A DNA stretch of 39,604 bases from a virus, in the IMG/VR virus record IMGVR_UViG_3300046694_000359, positions 1-39,604 of that record. One strand, 5' to 3'. This document shows positions 7,455 through 29,485 of this stretch, one piece after another. The position numbers and the translations under genes were made by a program. The number at the start of each line of letters is the position of its first letter. Position 1 is the stretch's first letter. Below the pieces are notes generated by a model. It did no database searches and had not been told where the DNA came from. It saw only the letters and a program-made list of their open reading frames with translations.

Positions 7455-9352
7455 ATGGCAGATAAGGATCAGGACAATAGTATCTTTACTAGTCCAATTT
7501 CTCCTTCAGCACGTAGAAAGCTGCAAGATAGATTTGACAATTCTACAAAAAAGATTCAAAGAAAACAGCTAGAGATGGATAATGATGATCTAGATCTAGC
7601 TGATAAAACTAAGAAGCTTACTCAAAAAATTGACCTAAATATCACAAAGATTTTAGGTCAATTCGCTAGTGCAGGTAATCCAACAAATAACGTTGAAGTT
7701 ACTGATACAATGATCACTCTAGCTCAAAAGAGTGGTGCTGCACAGCGTCGTATGAATGGTAAGAAATTTAAGAAAGAACTAGATGCTATTAAAAATGAAG
7801 TACTAACAAGCAATAAACAACAGCTTTCTAGTATGATTGACCTTAATCGTCGTAAAGTAGGTGATGCAATTGCTACCTACAATATGATCATTAAGATCAT
7901 TCCTAAAATGCGTTTAGCTCTTACTACAATTGCCAATACAATCATTTCTCCAGATGATTTTACGAAAGATTCTTTATCGATCCATATTAATGCTGAAGGT
8001 GTAGCTGAAGAAGATCAAAAAGTAATTCGTGAACGTATTGAGAAACTTCTTGTTGATCATAATATCAATAAAAAGCTAAAAGAAGATGTAACAGCATTTC
8101 TTAAGAATGGTAAGTTATTCTTCTTAGCTCTATCAATGAATGATCAGATCAAGAAGATGCTTTCTGAGCATGCTGGAGAGCAACCATTAAGAACTTATCA
8201 AAAACTAACTACTATTCTTTCAGACAAAGATAAACGTCTTATGGAAGGTAGTGAATGGTCTACAGAAGCATCACAGCGTACTGAATCAGATTATTCTAAG
8301 TGGTTATCTGAAGGTGTTCAAGAAGCATTTGGTATTGATCGTAGTAAAGTTCCAGATGCACTTAAAAACGTAGATACATTTCTACAAGAGCACTTTATTA
8401 TTGGTAATTCTAGCCATCTTGCTGCGGAACATAGTCAAATTTCATCTTTATCTGAAGATGTAAATATGAACTTCTTTGGAGTTGATCCTACTTCTGTTAT
8501 GCAAAATAACGTTGCTCAACAGAATAAGGGTGCTCCGCAAGATGGAAAGGTAACTCCTGAAGATGTTCCTGTAGGTGGTCGTGAACGTCCTATCTTTAAG
8601 CGTGTCAATCCAGCTAATATTGTACCATTAGAATTTGATGGTAATGTACTAGGTTATATCCATCTTGATATCGTTGAAATTGATCCAGATGGTACAGTAC
8701 TTCCTTCAGATAAGAGTCAAGACTCAGAAGACAATGTAACCTTTATGCCAGCAGCTACACAATCAGGCGGCAATGGTTCCATTCTTCAAAATATGGTAAT
8801 GGCTCGTAATGATATCAGTATGGATGGTAATAACCGTATGGGTAATCAAGCTAAGGCTGAAAATCCAAATGGTTCACCACAGCTTGATGCTGTAGATGAT
8901 GCACGTCTAATGTTCATTGCTAATGTCTTTGCAAATAAGATGAGCAGAGACTCAAATATTAAGCTTCTTCGTAAGAATGAGACATTGAAGTATGCAATCT
9001 ATTCAGGTCTAGCTATTAAGAAGCTTACAGGTAATGAAAAGATTCGTATTGTCTATTTAAAACCTGAAGAAGTTATTCATATCAATCGTGGTCAATCAAT
9101 TTTTGACAATATTCTATTCTTTGCAAAGCTTTATATTGCTACACTAGTTACTATTCTAATGCAGAATGTACTACGTGGTGCAGATAAGCGTGCAGTATAT
9201 GTAGATATCGGATTAAATAATGATGCATCAGCATCTGTACAACAGGTTGTCCGTGACTTAAAGTCTAAGGAAATTACCGGTGTACATAATCTAGATATGC
9301 AGACTATCTTGAATGTGGTAGGTGAATTTAACGACTATTACATTCCCACGAT
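7455..9352 (+). CDS. Portal vertex protein, exon 1 (T4 gp20-like)
   Basis: The first 632 codons plus two bases of an 866-residue portal protein; codon 633 (ATA, Ile) is completed by the first base of exon 2 at 10369. Similarity to T4 gp20 is visible in order: a charged N-terminus, the strand-rich middle (RPIFKRVNPANIVPLEFDG), then VYVDIGLNND, and FNDYYIPTI, matching YxDVG and EDYWLP in gp20. The protein would form the dodecameric ring through which DNA enters and leaves the head. Unspliced, the frame runs only seven bases into the intron and stops at 9357-9359, giving a truncated 634-residue product. Start: AAAAGGAATCGAT before the ATG. It is longer than T4 gp20 (about 520 aa), mainly in the N-terminal half. 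Confidence 0.85.
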
Positions 9353-10368
9353 AAAATAACATGTAAATAAGTTTAATTACTATTTTACATGCTATGCCAA
9401 AGAAAATTTCACATGAAGATTTTTGCAACACTTTAAAAGAAAAGTGGGGTACAGAGTACGAAGCTTTAGGTACATATATCAAAAATAATGTCAAGATTTT
9501 ATTTAGACATACTATTTGTGGTAATGAATTTGAGTCTCGTCCAAATGACCTTCTTCAGAATAAAGGTGGATGCTTTACTTGTAAGTATAAGAAACTTCAT
9601 AAGCTCAGAGCAAAAACACCTGAGCAATTTGAAGAACAAGTAAAATTGCTTCCAAATGCTTCTGAATATACTTTTTTAGAGAAGTACTATAATAATGATA
9701 CTAAGATTAAAATTAGGCACGATGTATGTGGCCATGAATATAGTGTAGCTCCAATAAAATTTTTAGATAATAGGCGTTGCCCACAGTGTAATATGGGTAA
9801 ATTGCCTAAAGTATCTAAAGGAGTTAAAACTATTGAAGAATTTTTAAGAAATAATGGAATTTCTTTTGATACTGAAGTTTATTTTGATAATTGTAAATCA
9901 GATAAAAATAGGAAACTCTATTTTGATTTTGCAATACATGTATCGGATACAGAATATTTCTTAATTGAATTCGATGGTAAACAGCACTTTCAAACATCTA
10001 AGGCATTTACAGGCCATAATCTTAGTGAAAGTATTAAACGTAATTCAGTAAAAGACAATTTTTGTAAAGATAATGGAATTACTTTACATCGTATCATCTA
10101 TACTGAAAATATTGAAGAACGTTTAAGTGAAATTTTTGGTAAATAACCATCTGTCGTGGTTAAATTTTCTTAATTGCTGGAAGTCCTTAACATGTAATGA
10201 TGAAGGTGATCAGCAGCGAAGCCTCTTAAGAGGAACGTTCAACGACTATAATGTACATTTCAAGTGAAATGGAAACAGAAAATACTCTATTTATAGGGTA
10301 AAGATATAGTCTGATCTTATATGAAAATATAAGTATTATGAATTAACTATTCATACAAACTACACCAG
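9353..10368 (+). ncRNA. Group I intron in the portal gene (1016 nt)
   Basis: The ribozyme core is recognisable downstream of the endonuclease ORF: a P-like element AATTGCTGGAA, Q-like CAGCAGCGAAG, R-like GTTCAACGACTA (about 10229) and S-like AAGATATAGTC, with GACTATA/TATAGTC forming P7. A 7-bp stem with a GAAA loop (10316-10333) fits P9. The guide GTCGTGG at 10153-10159 pairs with exon CCACGAT (9346-9352), leaving a U-G pair at the splice site (P1). The six bases just before it, CCATCT (10147-10152), pair with AGATGG at 10369-10374 (P10). The intron ends in G10368, as the class requires, and splicing restores the portal frame. The ORF lies in the P1 loop. Confidence 0.9.
9394..10146 (+). CDS. 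Homing endonuclease with two zinc ribbons and a Vsr-like nuclease domain
   Basis: The protein has 250 residues. Two similar zinc-binding repeats come first: HTICGNEF...GGCFTC (about 38-62) and HDVCGHEY...RRCPQC (about 109-132). A C-terminal nuclease domain with KLYFDFAI (about 173) and LIEFDGKQHF (about 189-198) follows, matching the Vsr-like EDxHD homing endonucleases such as I-Bth0305I. It sits in the intron P1 loop and ends exactly where the splice guide begins. It should cut intronless portal genes at the insertion site and spread the intron. There is no Shine-Dalgarno; a 7-bp hairpin (9361-9367 with 9384-9390) lies just before the ATG and may limit translation. Confidence 0.88.
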   Translation: MPKKISHEDFCNTLKEKWGTEYEALGTYIKNNVKILFRHTICGNEFESRPNDLLQNKGGCFTCKYKKLHKLRAKTPEQFEEQVKLLPNASEYTFLEKYYNNDTKIKIRHDVCGHEYSVAPIKFLDNRRCPQCNMGKLPKVSKGVKTIEEFLRNNGISFDTEVYFDNCKSDKNRKLYFDFAIHVSDTEYFLIEFDGKQHFQTSKAFTGHNLSESIKRNSVKDNFCKDNGITLHRIIYTENIEERLSEIFGK

Positions 10369-14863: not shown

Positions 14864-16279
14864 TTAAGTTAATTCAAATCTATCTTGTTTAGGGATAGAA
14901 TCTGTAATAGGCTTACTAGGCTTAATCTTAACAGATGCTTCTTCTACATAGTCATTTAGATTAAACTCTGTAGGTTTAAGAGCCATATTGTGGAATGCCT
15001 TCATTGACAATAGCATGATTCGAGTTGAAATACGGGCAATGTGCATACCAATATTTTCAATCTTCATCACATAGAACATATCACCTAGGCAATGATTACA
15101 AATTTTTTGTGTCTTACAAAACATCGGACTTCTAAATTTGCTTACTTTGCCAAGATATTTGTCTTTATTATCATCGTCTAGACGAACTAATTTACTACCC
15201 TCTTTGATATACCTAAACTTGTAGTTATCATAGTTCTTGTTAGTGATAATGGCATCAATTGTTCTAGTTGATCCACAATCAGAACCTTCTTTATCTGCAA
15301 CTACACCAGAGAATGCATTAATAAAGATCTTATTTAGATAACCACCCTTTTGGGTGTCAATAGCACGACCTGCTGCACCTTGAACAGCCAAGTCAGCATG
15401 GGCAGGAATATCTTCTTTAGATACACCTTCAGTAAGGTTAGATAAGCAAATTTCAAAAGCATTTGGATCTGCAGTCTTCGTAGCAACTCCACGGAAAACT
15501 GATGTAACTTTATAGTTGTTACTCCACGATCCATTATATCCACTATCGTAAATGAATTTACCAGTGGCACCCTTTTTAGTAAGCTCTTCTGATGCTACAT
15601 CAAGAACCTTATTCTCAATTTCAGTGAATTTAAGAACGTCTTTATTTTCAATAGCATCTCGGTTATCTGCAATAAGCTTATTCTTGACTCTTGTAGTTTC
15701 TTCATCAGGTACAATAGTCTTAAGATCAAGACTAGGTAAAGTAAAGATAGCGGATGTATAACCTAACCACTGCAATCTATCAATATAATCAGTTAGAACT
15801 TGGTGATCTATTTGACTATTGATATAGAGTTTAACTATATTAGAGTCAGCATTTTTCATTGTCTTAGCATCAAAAGCTGCATCAACAAAGTTGACTAATA
15901 GATATAGTGGATAATCTGCAATGCCACCTTCTTTTTTAGCAAAGTGGACATAAATACCAAAAATGAATAAATTTACTATGATCCGGCCGATGGTAGTTTC
16001 CTTACCAACCAAATCTTTGTAATTCTTAAACTGAGTAATCGGACTACCTTCAGGAATTACTTTTGGATCAATCTTGATAGGAGTATTTGGAGGTACTATT
16101 GCATCATCAGCATCTCCATTTACTGCAAACATTTCCATCAAGAATGATTTTGTAATATCGGATTCAAGCAAACTAAATACCGAATTAAGATCTTTTGGAT
16201 CAATTCTTTTTGGTGGTTTAGGTTGCTCTTCAGTGGCGATATCCGTATTCTCTTGATTTTCGATATCAGTATCAGCCAT
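14864..16279 (-). CDS. RNA polymerase beta-prime subunit, C-terminal part (phage multisubunit RNAP)
   Basis: A 471-residue split version of the C-terminal half of bacterial RpoC. Landmarks in order: TTIGRIIVN (RpoC TTVGRxLL), IYDSGYNGSWSNN in the place of the bridge helix (MADSGARGSxxQ), GAAGRAIDTQKGGYLNKIF in the place of the trigger loop/helix (GARKGLADT...GYLTRRL), then SDCGS and SPMFCKTQKICNHCLGD, the four Cys of the second zinc site, and IARISTRIMLLSMKAFHN (IAAQSIGEPGTQLTMRTFH). The Mg-binding NADFDGD motif belongs to a separate subunit outside this window. The start at 16279 (AGAGAAA upstream) is preferred to 16309. Split subunits of this kind are known from phiKZ- and AR9-like phages. 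Confidence 0.92.
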   Translation of the reverse strand: MADTDIENQENTDIATEEQPKPPKRIDPKDLNSVFSLLESDITKSFLMEMFAVNGDADDAIVPPNTPIKIDPKVIPEGSPITQFKNYKDLVGKETTIGRIIVNLFIFGIYVHFAKKEGGIADYPLYLLVNFVDAAFDAKTMKNADSNIVKLYINSQIDHQVLTDYIDRLQWLGYTSAIFTLPSLDLKTIVPDEETTRVKNKLIADNRDAIENKDVLKFTEIENKVLDVASEELTKKGATGKFIYDSGYNGSWSNNYKVTSVFRGVATKTADPNAFEICLSNLTEGVSKEDIPAHADLAVQGAAGRAIDTQKGGYLNKIFINAFSGVVADKEGSDCGSTRTIDAIITNKNYDNYKFRYIKEGSKLVRLDDDNKDKYLGKVSKFRSPMFCKTQKICNHCLGDMFYVMKIENIGMHIARISTRIMLLSMKAFHNMALKPTEFNLNDYVEEASVKIKPSKPITDSIPKQDRFELT

Positions 16280-16315
16280 AATTTCTCTTATAAAAAAAAA
16301 ATGAAGCAAACAGAA

Positions 16316-22757: not shown

Positions 22758-23261
22758 ATGCCAGCACCAATCTCTCCTAATGCGTCGATTGCTTCTACTT
22801 TAGCTACATTTAGCAATGTATTTACAGATGCACAGACTGAAGCATTGAAAGATGAAATTTCTTTCACTATGAATGCATTCAATCAAACACAAGCATACTC
22901 AGATTACATTGCATTAGCTTTCCGCTTGAGAGATTTACTATTAATGGAACGTGGTACCAATCCTGCAGCTCCAAGCATGGGAGTTGGTATCCGTAACTAT
23001 CTAATGGAAATTGCTGATAGTATTACTCTTTCAGATCTCAAGCAAGCTATTCAAAGTCAAATTGATATATGGCTTCCAACCGATCAAATTGTTGATTTCA
23101 CTTTAACACCAAATCCTCAGATTACCGATCGAAATAAAGTAGCAATTATTTTTCAGCTAAAGAATACTAATACTCAATTCAATAGCTCAAATGCATTCGC
23201 TATTACAGTAGATGGTAATGTGACAAGATCTGGTAGTTTAGTTTCACAGATTTATATCTAA
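22758..23261 (+). CDS. Baseplate wedge protein, gp25-like
   Basis: The protein has 167 residues. From about residue 50 it follows the GPW/gp25 family layout: RLRDLLLMERGTNPAAPSMG (family: L-lltr-GeR...PdyG), IRNYLMEIADSITLSDLKQ (lLfep...), IQSQIDIWLPTDQIVDFTL (aI...wEPRi...v), then alternating strands. gp25 and P2 gpW-class proteins sit in the inner wedge around the hub and resemble the type VI secretion sheath initiator. It lies directly before the gp26-like gene, as gene 25 lies before gene 26 in T4. It starts one base after the previous stop. Confidence 0.65.
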   Translation: MPAPISPNASIASTLATFSNVFTDAQTEALKDEISFTMNAFNQTQAYSDYIALAFRLRDLLLMERGTNPAAPSMGVGIRNYLMEIADSITLSDLKQAIQSQIDIWLPTDQIVDFTLTPNPQITDRNKVAIIFQLKNTNTQFNSSNAFAITVDGNVTRSGSLVSQIYI

Positions 23262-23336: not shown

Positions 23337-23365
23337 GTATCACAATAACTTCTTTGGAAAGAATT

Positions 23366-24763
23366 ATGGAAAATCAATCATTTGGTTCAGTCACAGACCT
23401 AATCAGTTCATTTCAGACTCCCGGTCAAGTAGCTGCACCAACAGCAGCCATTAGTGATGCCGATCTAACTCCTGAACAGATGGCAGTACAACAAGCTCAA
23501 GAAGCAATTGCACAGCAATCATCAACAACTTTACCACAAGAACTAGCACAGCCAGTAAGCACTGCTGTTCAATCAACTACTATTGATCCAGTGGCTGTAA
23601 TTCCAGCTGCACCTGCTACTCCTGTTAAGGCAGAAGTTAAGCCAACTCTTGAAGCTACTCTAGCTGAAGATGTTGAGGCTGATGAAAAAGATCCTAACCG
23701 TATGGAAGTAGTTAATCTACTACTAGATGCAATGCAAGAGCTATTTGCACAGCGTAAAGCTCAAGGTGCTGGTGCTCAAGTTGATAAGATTAGGAATATT
23801 CTTAATAATGTATCAGTGGACGTAGATGCCATTGTACCTGTTAAAGCAGATAATCCACTACCAATTCAACAACAACTACAGATCATTAACACAATTGATG
23901 CATCACCATCATTTCCTGTTATTGCTCTAAAGAGTGGCTATCGTCTTTCATTTAAGGCACTGAATAATAACGACAAGATTGCAGTTCGTAATTTCCGTGG
24001 AACTCCTTACGATCAGACAATTAAGCTGCTAAAGCTAGTTTTCTCTAAAATTGCAGAAACATCAGTTGGCTCAATGAAGTTTGCTGATTTTCTGAACGTA
24101 ACTGCGGATGAAGATTATGAAACACTTCTGTATGGTATCTACTATCCTACTTTCCCTCAAGCTACAGAATACACTGTGCAATGTCCCCATTGTGCTGCGA
24201 AAAACAACGTCAAGCTATTACCAGACACTCTAATTGAAGTAGTCGATCAAGAAAAAGCTGGTACATATGTTGCTGATGTTCTTCAAGGTGTAAACCGTGG
24301 TCGTGAGTTCCTAAGTAACTCAATGGTAGCTAAGACCAAGCGTATTATTCTTCCAGATTCACGTATCGTTATTGAACTACTTACGCCAACACTGCAGCGT
24401 ATGCTAGACAATATGAGTCTGACACAAAAGTTTGCTGGTAAATTTGAAGATGAAATCATCGTTCTTCACAAGTATATCAAGCAAATCATGGTACCAGACG
24501 TTGAAGCGTTTAGCCGTGGTCAAGTTCGATACTATGAAGTCTCTGATATTCATCAGATTCTACCTTCAATTGCTAATCTTTCAGCAGGTGATCTAAAGGT
24601 ACTAAATAAGGCAATTAGTGATCGTATTCGTCAATATCGAGTACAGTACCGTATTCCTGCTTTTAATTGTGCCGGTGATACTTGTAAAAAGCTAATTGAA
24701 AATATCGATGTAGATATTACAAGTCTGCTTTTTTTCGCTATCGCCGAAGCAACTTCGGTATAA
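23366..24763 (+). CDS. gp26-like baseplate hub assembly protein, zero-frame product
   Basis: The unshifted product has 465 residues. The first 100 residues are Ala/Gln/Pro/Thr-rich and probably disordered. The main domain has LKSGYRLSFKALNNND, then LLYGIYYPTFPQATEYTVQCPHCAAKN with a CxxC, and near the end FNCAGDTCKKLIENIDVDI with two more Cys, so a four-Cys zinc site is possible. This layout resembles T4-type baseplate hub assembly proteins (gp26 region, T4_baseplate family). GGAAAG precedes the ATG at 23366. A slippery heptamer and hairpin lie 24 bases before the stop and lead into a -1 extension. Confidence 0.68.
   Translation: MENQSFGSVTDLISSFQTPGQVAAPTAAISDADLTPEQMAVQQAQEAIAQQSSTTLPQELAQPVSTAVQSTTIDPVAVIPAAPATPVKAEVKPTLEATLAEDVEADEKDPNRMEVVNLLLDAMQELFAQRKAQGAGAQVDKIRNILNNVSVDVDAIVPVKADNPLPIQQQLQIINTIDASPSFPVIALKSGYRLSFKALNNNDKIAVRNFRGTPYDQTIKLLKLVFSKIAETSVGSMKFADFLNVTADEDYETLLYGIYYPTFPQATEYTVQCPHCAAKNNVKLLPDTLIEVVDQEKAGTYVADVLQGVNRGREFLSNSMVAKTKRIILPDSRIVIELLTPTLQRMLDNMSLTQKFAGKFEDEIIVLHKYIKQIMVPDVEAFSRGQVRYYEVSDIHQILPSIANLSAGDLKVLNKAISDRIRQYRVQYRIPAFNCAGDTCKKLIENIDVDITSLLFFAIAEATSV
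24730..24758 (+). promoter_or_regulatory. Programmed -1 ribosomal frameshift signal
   Basis: A zero-frame slippery heptamer T-TTT-TTC (24730-24736) is followed after seven bases by a hairpin: CCGAAG (24744-24749), loop CAA, CTTCGG (24753-24758). A one-base slip back continues from CGC at 24736 with no stop until 24993. All three parts (heptamer in the right phase, 5-8 base spacer, GC-rich stem) fit the standard bacterial/phage -1 signal. Confidence 0.85.
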
Positions 24764-24993
24764 TTGAAGTAGTTGCTGAGGCAGAAGCTACATCAGAAGA
24801 ATTCTATAAGATGCAGCTAAAGGGAGTGGTATCTACTTTGGATTTATTTCAAGGTCGGATGTCACTCTCTGAACTTCTCCAGATTCCAATCCCTTTCTTA
24901 AATGATCTGACTACTGCTCAGATTGATTATCTTAAAGAAAAGAAGAAAGCTGAAGAAGATGCGATGAAAGAACAACAACGAAAGAGAACTTAA
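24736..24993 (+). CDS. -1 frame extension of the hub assembly protein (possible gp51-like part)
   Basis: Reached by a -1 slip at 24730-24736, this frame adds 85 residues and gives a 542-residue fusion. The extension begins RYRRSNFGIIEVVAEAEA and continues with SEEFYKMQLKG, FQGRMSLSELLQIPIPFLNDL and a Lys/Glu helix. The MSLSELLxxPIxxLN part recalls the Sxx-x-LLxMxIxELN element of T4 gp51, the hub catalyst encoded near gene 26; that link is tentative. An ATG at 24811 could start a separate 60-residue protein, but it lacks a clear ribosome site (AATTCTATAAG upstream), which favours frameshifting. Confidence 0.78.
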   Translation, partial: RYRRSNFGIIEVVAEAEATSEEFYKMQLKGVVSTLDLFQGRMSLSELLQIPIPFLNDLTTAQIDYLKEKKKAEEDAMKEQQRKRT

Positions 24994-24998
24994 AAATA

Positions 24999-25029
24999 CC
25001 CGAACTTCTTATTAGACAAGAAGTTCGGG
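24999..25029 (+). terminator. Hairpin terminator
   Basis: CCCGAACTTCTT (24999-25010) pairs perfectly with AAGAAGTTCGGG (25018-25029) after the frameshifted gene. An AT-rich stretch CTATTTATTT follows. It separates the baseplate unit from the chaperonin. Confidence 0.82.
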
Positions 25030-25065
25030 CTATTTATTTACTCATAAAAATTTAGGAAAGAATCA

Positions 25066-26979
25066 ATGACTATCAAGGCAGCTATTAAAGCATTCATTCG
25101 TGAACTAGTAGCAGAAAATAAGCTATCTGACATTGACTTTAATGATACCCCTGCAGGTGAAATTGTCAAGACAGAGTCTACTAAGAGTAAGCTTATTGAG
25201 AACATGTTTGATGCTAAAACTCTTACCGACAATACATCAAAGGTTCTTCAAGAAATTTCAGATGTACTTCGTAAATCATATGGTCCATATGGTGCGAATA
25301 CAGTAATTCGTCAAGGTGGTGAGCAATTAGTAACTAAGGATGGTTTAGCTATCCTTAAGTCAATGAAGATTCCAACCATTAGTGCTGATACTATCTATCG
25401 TTTAGTGATGAGTATTTCATCTAATCTAGTACAAAAGGTTGGTGATGGTTCAACATCAGCTATTCTGGCAGCTAATGAAGTATATAAAGTACTCAAAGAT
25501 ACATTTGATGAAAATGATCAAAGTATTCTAGATACTTTCCGTACTCGTAAGCAGTTTGTATCATTTTTAGACCTGCTTCAAAAAGATCTAGAGACTATCA
25601 TTAAGCGCTATTATACATATCGACTTGATGAATTGTCACAAGAAGATAAGCTTCGTATTCTAACTACTGTAGCAACCTTATCAAATAATAATGATAAGAG
25701 TATTGGTCAAGAAGTTGCACAACTTATGTCAACTCTTAGCTCACATTCAGTAGTAGCTATCAAGCTTGCTCCAGACGATAATGAAGGTCTTAAGATCAAT
25801 AATCGTTATGGCTATCATACTACTGCATTAAGTATGGTTCATCCTTCTCTATTTAAGTCAGAGACTTCAGTAGAGCTAGAGAACCCTATGATCTTACAAG
25901 GTTATGAATTTTTCGATTTCCATTCAAAGATTGTGGATGGTATCAAAGCTAATATGTCTGTAGTGGCTAATGGTAAGGATGGAAAGCTTCCTCCAATCGT
26001 AGTTATTGCTGATGTATATCAAGCTGAAATTATTCAAAAGATTGTACAGGAATCATTCTTAGCTAAAGAACTTTCAGTATACTATCTTAAGACAGAAAGT
26101 CTAGAAAGTAATGATGCTAATGAGAAATTCCTTGATTTGGCAGCTTATATTAAGACTGACCCATTAGGTCTTTCACAAGTATCTCCAGACAATATTAAAG
26201 ATATGGATCTTGGCTCATTTATTGGTAATGCACGTAAAGTTACTATTACTCCTCAAGGAGTATTATTTGAAACTGGTGCTGGAGTTCGTATGAGTACTGA
26301 AGCATATACTAAACGTATGGCTGATATTCAGAAAGAACTTGATGAGACTTCCAAGAATCTAATCATTAAGCGTGGTCAGTTACGTAATCGTCTAGCAAGT
26401 CTAGTAGGTGTTCATTCAACTATCTTTGTTGGTGGACGTACTGAAGATGAAAAGACTTCTATCAAAGAACTAGTAGAAGATTCAGTTTTAGCTTGTCAGT
26501 CAGTAATGCGTAATGGTTATACAATGGGTGGTAACGTTGTTCCATTGTATGCATTGATTACTCTTAAAGCATTGTATGAAGTAGATCCATCATTGAATCT
26601 ATATAAATACAATGAAGATATGTGTGCATGGGACGTTATTAATGATTTAATTATTGCATACGTTAGTCTAGCTATGATTCCATTTGAGAATCGTGATATG
26701 CCGACAGATGCAGAGAATGATTATGAGGCATGGCTATCATATATCAATGATATGCCAACTAAGGTTAATACATTCTATGAAGATTCAATTGAACTAAGTG
26801 TAGGTGAAATTGAATGCAATGCTAAGAGCTTCCCAAAGATTCTTAATATTGTAAATGATGAAATTGAAAGTATTACAACTACTTCAGTTTTAGCTCCAGT
26901 AGAGACAGACCTTGAAATTTTAAGGGCATCATTCTCTATTGTAGGTCTACTACTTAATTCAAATCAATTGTCCCTTTAA
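25066..26979 (+). CDS. GroEL-like (group I) phage chaperonin
   Basis: The protein has 637 residues. The ATPase motifs are present: SYGPYGANTVI (GroEL GPKGRNVVL), LVTKDGLAIL with the Asp equivalent to Asp52 (about 91), KVGDGSTSAILAA with the Asp87 equivalent (about 127), and LVEDSVLACQSVMRNGYTMGGN with the Asp398 equivalent (about 472; GroEL [21 protein letters not shown]). So it should hydrolyse ATP and fold proteins, likely phage structural proteins. It is about 90 residues longer than E. coli GroEL, has an extra N-terminal stretch of about 50 residues, and lacks the GGM tail. No GroES partner is nearby. Chaperonins of this kind are known in phage EL and relatives. It stands alone between two terminators, with AGGAAAG before the ATG. 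Confidence 0.93.
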   Translation: MTIKAAIKAFIRELVAENKLSDIDFNDTPAGEIVKTESTKSKLIENMFDAKTLTDNTSKVLQEISDVLRKSYGPYGANTVIRQGGEQLVTKDGLAILKSMKIPTISADTIYRLVMSISSNLVQKVGDGSTSAILAANEVYKVLKDTFDENDQSILDTFRTRKQFVSFLDLLQKDLETIIKRYYTYRLDELSQEDKLRILTTVATLSNNNDKSIGQEVAQLMSTLSSHSVVAIKLAPDDNEGLKINNRYGYHTTALSMVHPSLFKSETSVELENPMILQGYEFFDFHSKIVDGIKANMSVVANGKDGKLPPIVVIADVYQAEIIQKIVQESFLAKELSVYYLKTESLESNDANEKFLDLAAYIKTDPLGLSQVSPDNIKDMDLGSFIGNARKVTITPQGVLFETGAGVRMSTEAYTKRMADIQKELDETSKNLIIKRGQLRNRLASLVGVHSTIFVGGRTEDEKTSIKELVEDSVLACQSVMRNGYTMGGNVVPLYALITLKALYEVDPSLNLYKYNEDMCAWDVINDLIIAYVSLAMIPFENRDMPTDAENDYEAWLSYINDMPTKVNTFYEDSIELSVGEIECNAKSFPKILNIVNDEIESITTTSVLAPVETDLEILRASFSIVGLLLNSNQLSL

Positions 26980-28018: not shown

Positions 28019-29485
28019 ATGGCCGCTAAATTTGTAACACACAACGGAGACAAAATTGTCAACATCGACTTCAAGAATAAAGTTTTTGAAGGACATATCT
28101 CCGATGAAAGCCTTTTGGATACCGTGTCGTTTGGATTTAGCTTTCTTAAGAAGCGTGTTTTCCATAAGTCAATTGATATTTTCATTGACGATGTAAATAC
28201 TTTTTTGGGAAAGAACCCACATCTTGCAGAAACATATTTGACTATCAAGGGGCTACTGGACCAAGGTGAATATGGTGATAACCAAGAAGATCGTATCCGT
28301 CTTGCAGAAGCAATTCGTGATTATATTATTGAGGATGAACCTCTAATTCAATCTATTTATGATTACGTTGAAGAGAATTATCAAATCACTATTGAAAGTC
28401 CTTCTAAAGACAATCAATTGCAGTTCAAAGATTCCTATGCAAAGCGAATTATTGGTTCTGCAATCCTTTTCCGGACTGTGATTCCTCTTCTCTGTCATTT
28501 CATGGCAGTACATAATATTCGTAAAGAAGATACACTCTTTCTAGAAGTTGTCCACCATATTCTCCAGAAGTTCAACTTTGATGATGATGGTGAACCACTG
28601 GATCTAGTCATCAAGATTCAGAAGTTTGTTGAAACAGCAGTAGCAAATACATTGTATTCTGATAAGGTCATGTGGTCTTATTTGAAGAATTTATCTATCA
28701 ATGATAAGACAATGGCTATTGAAATCCATCGTAATGTATTGACAAGTATTCTTCCAAAGCTTGATGTTAATAAGTCAATTGTCTCATTCTTTCACGTTGT
28801 TATTAAGAAACAAATTGAATACAATTTTACTGCTAACTTCCGGTTAACCTATAAGCCACTGAGTATTACTAAGACTGATTCAGATGCTTCCAATCCTTTT
28901 GTAAAGGTTGAACAGAAACTACTGAAGACATCTAGTGAGCTTCAAATTGTATTGATGCGTGAAGATATCGCTAACTTCATTGATCGTAATATGAAGTATG
29001 TCGATCCTGCACTATTTGATTATTATAAGAAGCATATTGACATTCATACAGGGCAAACCAAAATTCTCAATTTCTTTATCTCAAATCAGATTGGTAAAGG
29101 AATTGATTCTTATATGATGAATAAAGAGGACTATGTTAAGGTAGTTCTTATTGCAAAAGAATGGTTTGAACGTAATAACTATCCATTTATTAGCTATATT
29201 CTTCTTGGTAAGCCAGTACCAAAGCATACCATCAAACACAATTTTACTCGTGGTAAGAATTTCTTAGAGATTAAAGAATCATCTGTCTTTAAGAATATTG
29301 CCGATAAGTATAAGCATCTCGATACCAAAGCTGATATTACAGTGATTACTCAATTTATTGGTGAAGTTATCAATACAGACTTTGCTGAGTATAATCTACC
29401 TAATGGTGAGCCTTATCAGCCTACCAAGGAAATCAGTATTAAATCAGCAATGGTCGAAATCCTTAATTATGTGGAGCAACTATAA
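28019..29485 (+). CDS. Unrecognised phage protein (488 aa), primase operon
   Basis: A large soluble protein starting after TTAGGAAAAGC. It is mainly helical with scattered aromatic residues (IPLLCHFMAVHNIRKEDTLFLEV, YIIEDEPLIQSIYDYVEENY). I see no Walker, zinc or nuclease motif. It is co-transcribed with a small acidic protein and the primase, so a role in replication or transcription is likely from context only. Confidence 0.75.
   Translation: MAAKFVTHNGDKIVNIDFKNKVFEGHISDESLLDTVSFGFSFLKKRVFHKSIDIFIDDVNTFLGKNPHLAETYLTIKGLLDQGEYGDNQEDRIRLAEAIRDYIIEDEPLIQSIYDYVEENYQITIESPSKDNQLQFKDSYAKRIIGSAILFRTVIPLLCHFMAVHNIRKEDTLFLEVVHHILQKFNFDDDGEPLDLVIKIQKFVETAVANTLYSDKVMWSYLKNLSINDKTMAIEIHRNVLTSILPKLDVNKSIVSFFHVVIKKQIEYNFTANFRLTYKPLSITKTDSDASNPFVKVEQKLLKTSSELQIVLMREDIANFIDRNMKYVDPALFDYYKKHIDIHTGQTKILNFFISNQIGKGIDSYMMNKEDYVKVVLIAKEWFERNNYPFISYILLGKPVPKHTIKHNFTRGKNFLEIKESSVFKNIADKYKHLDTKADITVITQFIGEVINTDFAEYNLPNGEPYQPTKEISIKSAMVEILNYVEQL

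Follow-up and report, generated by a model that had tools for sequence, protein, structure and literature searches.

In phage lambda, the short and long forms of the tail assembly chaperone (TAC), gpG and gpGT, share an N-terminal body through a −1 frameshift near the 3′ end, as described in the part of Atkins et al. 2016 that was available to us (PMC5009743). The same part of that text names T4 as an exception to the conserved G–T frameshifting. The T4 proteins gp26 and gp51 are both listed as hub assembly chaperones in the accessible portion of PMC3004832, and the accessible portion of the PRFect paper (PMC10274946) states, with reference to Vladimirov, Gautam, and Davidson (Virology 2022), that some T4-like phages have a short gene beside a long fused one. 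For phage Adele, a −1 shift has been proposed at GTTTTT near the end of TAC-N, with the second open reading frame (ORF) routinely annotated as a separate hypothetical protein (PMC12846349, in the part available). Here, we analyze a gene and an overlapping −1 ORF in a viral sequence, IMG/VR record IMGVR_UViG_3300046694_000359, positions 1 to 39,604; this whole stretch of 39,604 nucleotides (nt) is referred to as the window. Based on sequence information, the locus very probably encodes a lambda G/GT-like TAC in two forms, TAC-N and a −1 frameshifted TAC-NC.

The elements that carry this interpretation are as follows.

23366–24763, + strand: zero-frame gene, gp26-like TAC short form (TAC-N-like), 465 amino acids; phrog_18873 (E 1.8e-86), gp26/gp51 profile match, and gp26-type Foldseek matches
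24728–24736, + strand: putative slip site CTT TTT TTC, which contains the in-phase heptamer T_TTT_TTC at 24730–24736 (X_XXY_YYZ phase)
24736–24993, + strand: extension in the −1 frame that adds 85 residues behind LLFF and would form the C terminus of the 542-residue long form (TAC-NC-like)

The locus resembles lambda G/GT in its predicted short and long forms with a common N-terminal body; the window gene differs in that it is not beside a recognized tape measure gene, and the lambda slip site is a different one. TAC loci of the Adele type (Vandenendeviridae and Andersonviridae) likewise have a short T run near the end of TAC-N, in other phage families. The T4-like TACs share with the window a remotely homologous body, the −1 direction, and a shift point located where the gp26-like body ends; the window heptamer is identical to that of Sf-FS3, Syn33, ValKK3, IC12, and phiAS5. 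The window protein has a long N-terminal region and an inserted segment that are not found in gp26. T4 itself lacks such a heptamer and has two paralogous genes, the short gp26 and the long gp51.

By direct reading, the zero-frame codons at 24725–24742 are CTG CTT TTT TTC GCT ATC, followed by GCC GAA GCA ACT TCG GTA TAA, with the stop ending at 24763; the slip site thus lies close to the 3′ end of a 465-codon gene that begins with the ATG at 23366. The heptamer, its phase, and the open −1 frame with 85 added residues are as described in a first-pass annotation made from the sequence alone. The open stretch of the −1 frame runs from 24700 to a stop ending at 24993, and the possible starts within the extension (ATG 24811, GTG 24826, and TTG 24838) all come at least 27 codons in, at or slightly ahead of its conserved core, so that the earlier remark that the extension has no good start of its own is fair. 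As a chance control, we considered every in-phase XXXYYYZ site within window ORFs that are 100 amino acids or longer (n = 37; 25 on the + and 12 on the − strand). The open −1 run after T_TTT_TTC spans 87 codons, and the runner-up spans 31. A chance origin is untenable in light of the comparative evidence given below, and the sequence observation in the window is confirmed.

The window groups with the jumbo phages of the PBS1/AR9/phiR1-37 type. Searching the zero-frame product against phage protein records gave 20 records, from Yersinia phage phiR1-37, Bacillus phages PBS1, AR9, Goe21, and BpSp, ten Staphylococcus phages, and Listeria phage LPJP1. Sixteen of these were examined, the other four being further records of phiR1-37, PBS1, and AR9; the LPJP1 record stops before the gene end and was left out, which leaves 15 named phages with a readable 3′ end. 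Together with the window and a 249-kb IMG/VR contig that carries a 99% identical copy of the locus, this makes 17 jumbo loci. All 17 have a −1 extension of 83 to 98 codons beginning at the same CTT TTY codon pair, and in none of them is there an ATG, GTG, or TTG in the first 26 extension codons; in BpSp, SA1, and LY01, none of these codons occurs ahead of the conserved core. The Leu–Phe encoded at the slip site is invariant in a protein alignment of eight sequences. The homologs (phrog_18873) in PBS1, AR9, phiR1-37, BpSp, and the Staphylococcus phages are direct homologs of the window gene with the −1 ORF in the same place, but their records differ from the single frameshifted gene proposed here. 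In all 15, a small second ORF is annotated, from extension codon 18, a CTG, in AR9 and from codons 31 to 47 in the others, and both products are labeled hypothetical proteins. For this gene pair, annotated as hypothetical throughout the 15 records, the analysis offers a corrected gene model together with a likely function.

Selection on the start of the extension was assessed in Staphylococcus phages of the Machias type (L006 and L016) and the S6 type (L007, L008, L010, and L011), using the region from the zero-frame stop to extension codon 30. When the two types were compared (eight pairs), the −1 frame had 11.5 to 13.3 synonymous changes on about 12 sites versus 6.7 to 10.5 nonsynonymous changes on about 51. 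The zero frame gave 2.8 synonymous and 16.2 nonsynonymous changes for L006 versus L008. Within the S6 type, L007 and L008 differ in the −1 frame by five synonymous changes on 12 sites and four nonsynonymous changes on 50; the closest pairs hold too few changes to be informative. These data show that the start of the extension is under purifying selection in the −1 frame in these phages. The 30-nt overlap is unchanged among the four S6-type loci, which differ at 6 to 22 positions in the 150 nt upstream.

T4 gp26 matches Pfam family PF12322 (T4_baseplate) at residues 1–206 of 208 and T4 gp51 at residues 1–201 of 249. Because both matches span the full profile, gp26 and gp51 are paralogs, with gp51 bearing an extra tail; T4 does encode the two separately, as the first-pass annotation had stated. 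Remotely related to gp26 and gp51, the zero-frame protein of the window contains two Cys-pair (zinc-ribbon-like) sites that are conserved. Alignment of the fused jumbo profile with the fused T4-like profile by hhalign gave a probability of 95.5 and a score of 69.2 (maximum of 25.6 in 150 column permutations), and the bodies alone gave a probability of 92.5 and a score of 55.5 (maximum of 21.0, also in 150 permutations). The probability depended on alignment breadth, being 42 for a smaller alignment pair (A1 versus A4) and 92 to 95 for broader alignments. In the fused alignment, the extension is collinear with the gp51 tail. An AlphaFold2 model of the window core, with a mean predicted local distance difference test score (pLDDT) of 62, was compared with BFVD using Foldseek and matched entries named T4-like baseplate hub assembly protein (best E 3.1e-7) and also Gp26 of Aeromonas phage 25 (E 1.7e-4). 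The same core fold also matches uncharacterized BFVD proteins of Erwinia phage Special G, Klebsiella phage Eowyn, Erwinia phage phiEaH2, Aeromonas phage PS1, and Tenacibaculum phages PTm1 and pT24, which may be considered candidate TACs. The window extension had no direct family match at E 0.001, and four extensions searched at a laxer limit gave only weak matches (best 0.0023), all to families whose function is unrelated or not known. Searching solved structures by sequence gave nothing useful, and a fold search of the PDB with a model of a cyanophage gp26 gave no match at E up to 0.001; the HK97 TAC (2ob9) ranked second and third in the PDB fold search with E values of 1.1 and 1.5, which is no evidence.

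Vladimirov and co-workers (2022) reportedly found frameshifting to be conserved in several T4-like groups, with T4 using genes 26 and 51. The T4-like part of the device is, to judge from the available portions of papers citing that study, already known. In phages that have gp26 but no full gp51, the T_TTT_TTC heptamer occurs at the end of gp26 (Sf-FS3, Rhizobium phage IC12, Aeromonas phage phiAS5, Syn33, and ValKK3), in HTVC008M as T_TTT_TTT, and the −1 ORF of the T4-like loci aligns with the gp51 tail. T_TTT_TTC was found in phase at the gp26 end in 84 of 84 viral-contig loci with 52 distinct forms, namely the best 80 of 591 relatives of Sf-FS3 gp26 (cyanophage-like) and four phiAS5-type loci. 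Loci found with the gp26 of ValKK3 have the heptamer in two of two cases and those found with HTVC008M gp26 in nine of 11, the others being one contig with a broken frame and one ending too early. In one HTVC008M-type contig (L140), the gp26 frame stops early and the heptamer is missing at that point, possibly because of a sequence error. None of the 15 loci found with gp26 of PhiSH19 (Ackermannviridae) has the heptamer, but each of the 15 carries, at ATT TTC ATT TAA, a −1 ORF that encodes a gp51-like tail. In PhiSH19 (L119, 2289–2474) and in L123–L137, this ORF overlaps the gp26 end with only a U_UUC tetramer at the site; in the PhiSH19 record, it is not annotated.

As a control for codon usage, the 63 distinct gp26 genes of the 80 cyanophage-like loci were inspected for Phe–Phe pairs. 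The slip site reads TTT TTC in 63 of 63, and the other pairs read TTC TTT (43), TTT TTT (14), or TTC TTC (6), never TTT TTC. A Shine–Dalgarno-like motif lies at most 22 nt upstream of the cyanophage site in 63 of 63, a count without a chance control. The site is followed by a hairpin in which 86% of cells are paired and the covariation score exceeds that of all 500 shuffles, although this covariation is weak because only one of ten pairs changed on both sides. In six phages with separate gp26 and gp51 genes, T_TTT_TTC was absent from the gp26 end in every case (T4 reads TTC TTT there); in two of these phages, a different in-phase XXXYYYZ is present no more than 30 nt from where gp26 ends, and we attribute this to chance. 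The products annotated as gp51 in Syn33 and HTVC008M and the small phiAS5 ORF start from an internal ATG (L120, 1558–1695; L117, 1552–1689; L022, 3262–3384), and the first part of the conserved tail is therefore missing from these annotations. The programmed −1 frameshift in a gp26-like hub assembly gene that the first-pass annotation proposed for the window is well supported, both because it is conserved and because homologous T4-like phages have the same heptamer.

Most ribosomes would stay in the zero frame and stop at 24763, yielding the 465-residue TAC-N, which would correspond to lambda gpG and T4 gp26. A smaller share would slip back one base at CTT TTT TTC (24728–24736), bypass that stop, and add 85 residues, giving the 542-residue TAC-NC, the presumed equivalent of lambda gpGT and T4 gp51. 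On the lambda model, binding of the tape measure protein would fall to the body common to both forms and recruitment of the tail tube subunit to the extension, and neither form would stay in the virion. Slippage in cells, its ratio, and these protein functions are what we infer from the locus. The first-pass annotation had suggested that the extension may take the gp51 role. It is the fused long form, and not the 85-residue extension by itself, that corresponds to gp51, since T4 gp51 contains the whole gp26-like body plus the tail. The same annotation had counted relatives with the extension in frame as evidence against a frameshift; such relatives exist (the T4 type), yet alongside a separate short gp26, and because this short gene is kept, and hence two products, they favor the existence of two isoforms. 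In the phiR1-37 record, the note “phage structural protein” is attached to g239, g240, and g244 and is absent from g241 and g242, which is weak evidence for absence from virions because g238 and g243 lack the note too.

Several observations weigh against a two-form TAC. The window protein has no match to PF12322, and the BpSp homolog matches this family with 17.4 bits (E 0.0038), under the curated cut-off of 24.5 bits. The extension alone aligned with the gp51 tail at a score of 15.4, which was reached by three of 150 permutations. Between Machias- and S6-type phages, 6 of 30 overlap positions changed versus 29 to 37 of the 150 upstream, meaning that the overlap is no better kept. The window gene does not adjoin a recognized tape measure gene, a terminator and a GroEL-like gene coming next; such adjacency is usual for TAC genes but not obligatory, and T4 gp26 is not directly upstream of gene 29 either. 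Within the jumbo clade, an XXXYYYZ heptamer is absent from 14 of 17 loci, which have CUU_UUY instead, and unusual downstream structure was found neither in BpSp nor in the three Staphylococcus loci that were folded (L006, L007, and L008). In all 80 cyanophage-like loci, an ATG occurs within the first six extension codons, and separate initiation is possible there; early starts also occur in ValKK3-type loci (ATG at codon 3), L109 (GTG at codon 5), and L111 (TTG at codon 2).

These early starts, the ATG at 24811 in the window, and the small ORF annotated in 15 of 15 named relatives (in AR9 from the CTG at codon 18) would fit an extension that is a separate small gene, reached by re-initiation or an internal start and without any frameshift. 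For the jumbo clade, this explanation is rejected, given that early ATG, GTG, and TTG codons are lacking in 17 of 17 loci (before the core altogether in BpSp, SA1, and LY01) and that purifying selection acts in the −1 frame on the stretch ahead of the first such codon. Among T4-like phages, Syn33, IC12, phiAS5, HTVC008M, L110, L146, and L148 have a heptamer with six or seven T at the gp26 end and no ATG, GTG, or TTG in the first 16 extension codons, and in T4 gp51, the tail is fused in frame to a gp26-like body, all of which makes a separate gene highly improbable. One could also imagine that stuttering of the phage RNA polymerase at the T run produces a −1 mRNA, which is then read normally. 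The window and the near-identical contig have runs of seven T and BpSp has eight, RNA polymerase genes are present in the window, and phages of the PBS1/AR9/phiR1-37 type use their own multisubunit RNA polymerases. However, the −1 ORF is kept in relatives with only five T (PBS1, AR9, phiR1-37, and the S6-type Staphylococcus phages) or four T (Machias, PB50, and AH12), and runs of this length are short for polymerase slippage; the shrinking runs leave transcriptional slippage a very slim likelihood.

A single change in a T homopolymer could give a similar picture in one genome if a mutation or an assembly error had split one gene, with no two products being made. The same layout recurs in the 15 named relatives and across many T4-like loci, which reduces this to a negligible chance, and sequencing or assembly error is ruled out by the named relatives. 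Finally, the frameshift might occur in proteins that are not TACs, the long form having some other role, as the body is only a remote gp26 relative and no tape measure gene was identified alongside. We consider this quite unlikely in view of the profile and fold matches to gp26/gp51, the place of the gene after a gp25-like gene, and the shared frameshift architecture.

With the two-form TAC as the preferred interpretation, the jumbo loci differ in their slip signals. The first-pass annotation had proposed aligning relatives to see whether heptamer and hairpin are conserved; within the jumbo clade, the −1 ORF and the slip position are, and the full heptamer and the hairpin are not. The full heptamer occurs in three of the 17 loci, namely the window, the near-identical contig, and BpSp (as T_TTT_TTT), and the other 14 have CTT TTT or CTT TTC followed by CAT, ACC, AAG, or CGG. 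The accessible part of PMC5009743 gives Z_ZZN as the minimal −1 site, with anticodon re-pairing at the overlapping −1 codon, and the U_UUY of the jumbo loci satisfies this minimum as stated there. In each of the four S6-type loci checked, the CGG after the slip site is the sole CGG in the five genes counted (one each per 1,384, 1,321, 1,381, and 1,359 codons). Folding of the downstream 50 nt gave z values of −3.0 for the window, −2.3 for phiR1-37, −1.0 for PBS1, −0.2 for S6, −0.4 for SA1, +0.8 for BpSp, and +1.3 for Machias. Tentatively, the slip signal could have changed type within one phage clade while the product was kept, with 14 of 17 loci shifting at CUU_UUY and, in the S6 type, a slow CGG in the A site rather than a heptamer or hairpin driving the shift; we regard this as conceivable but doubtful. 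At CUU_UUY, at most one tRNA would re-pair fully, and the window and BpSp would have gained a full heptamer through a longer T run. If true, the clade would form a natural series, with P-site slippage at a rare codon at one end and classical tandem slippage at the other.

No report of this frameshift in PBS1/AR9/phiR1-37-type phages was found in the titles and the beginnings of abstracts that were searched, a search that papers outside this set or on single phages could escape. What is new here is the recognition of the predicted TAC frameshift in the jumbo clade, together with its weaker slip sites. The clade contributes a lineage that has a related body, shares the shift point, and shows a range of slip sites, which makes slip-site evolution testable in phages that grow on laboratory Bacillus subtilis.

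Two overlapping structures downstream of the window heptamer were considered.

24744–24758, + strand: hairpin CCGAAG-CAA-CTTCGG, 7 nt past the heptamer; −8.5 kcal/mol, z −1.55
24737–24788, + strand: larger alternative stem–loop, possible stimulator; −19.9 kcal/mol, z −3.14, equalled by none of 200 shuffles (54 nt folded)

The spacer of 7 nt (24737–24743) and the hairpin (CCGAAG at 24744–24749, CAA at 24750–24752, and CTTCGG at 24753–24758) are present as the first-pass annotation had read them. Taken alone, this hairpin is unexceptional, its z value for 39 folded nt being equalled by 16 of 200 shuffles. The larger stem–loop re-uses its bases.

The gene is flanked by the following elements.

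22758–23261, + strand: gp25-like baseplate wedge gene, upstream; phrog_261 (E 2.9e-8) and phrog_43 (E 3.2e-5)
23356–23361, + strand: Shine–Dalgarno-like GGAAAG, 4 nt ahead of the ATG at 23366
24994–25035, + strand: strong hairpin resembling an intrinsic terminator, immediately after the extension stop; −20.3 kcal/mol, z −8.1
25066–26979, + strand: phage chaperonin (GroEL-like) gene, downstream; phrog_5725 (E 9.5e-69)

In phiR1-37, an annotated terminator lies right behind the second ORF, and a GroEL-like gene is likewise found downstream in PBS1, AR9, and phiR1-37. The window chaperonin has 637 residues and is a divergent GroEL, since Pfam Cpn60 covers residues 64–147 only versus residues 47–635 for the PHROG groEL profile. 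In PBS1- and Staphylococcus-type phages, the extension and GroEL are separated by a small gene (L003, 4234–4566; L007, 4282–4575) that is lacking in the window and phiR1-37. Elsewhere in the window, an HNH homing-endonuclease-like gene (9394–10146) adjoins a portal-like gene (7455–9359). The RNA polymerase subunit genes lie at separate places (14864–16309 on the − strand, phrog_2962; 28019–29485 on the + strand, phrog_25005), as is presumably to be expected for AR9-type phages with split polymerases.

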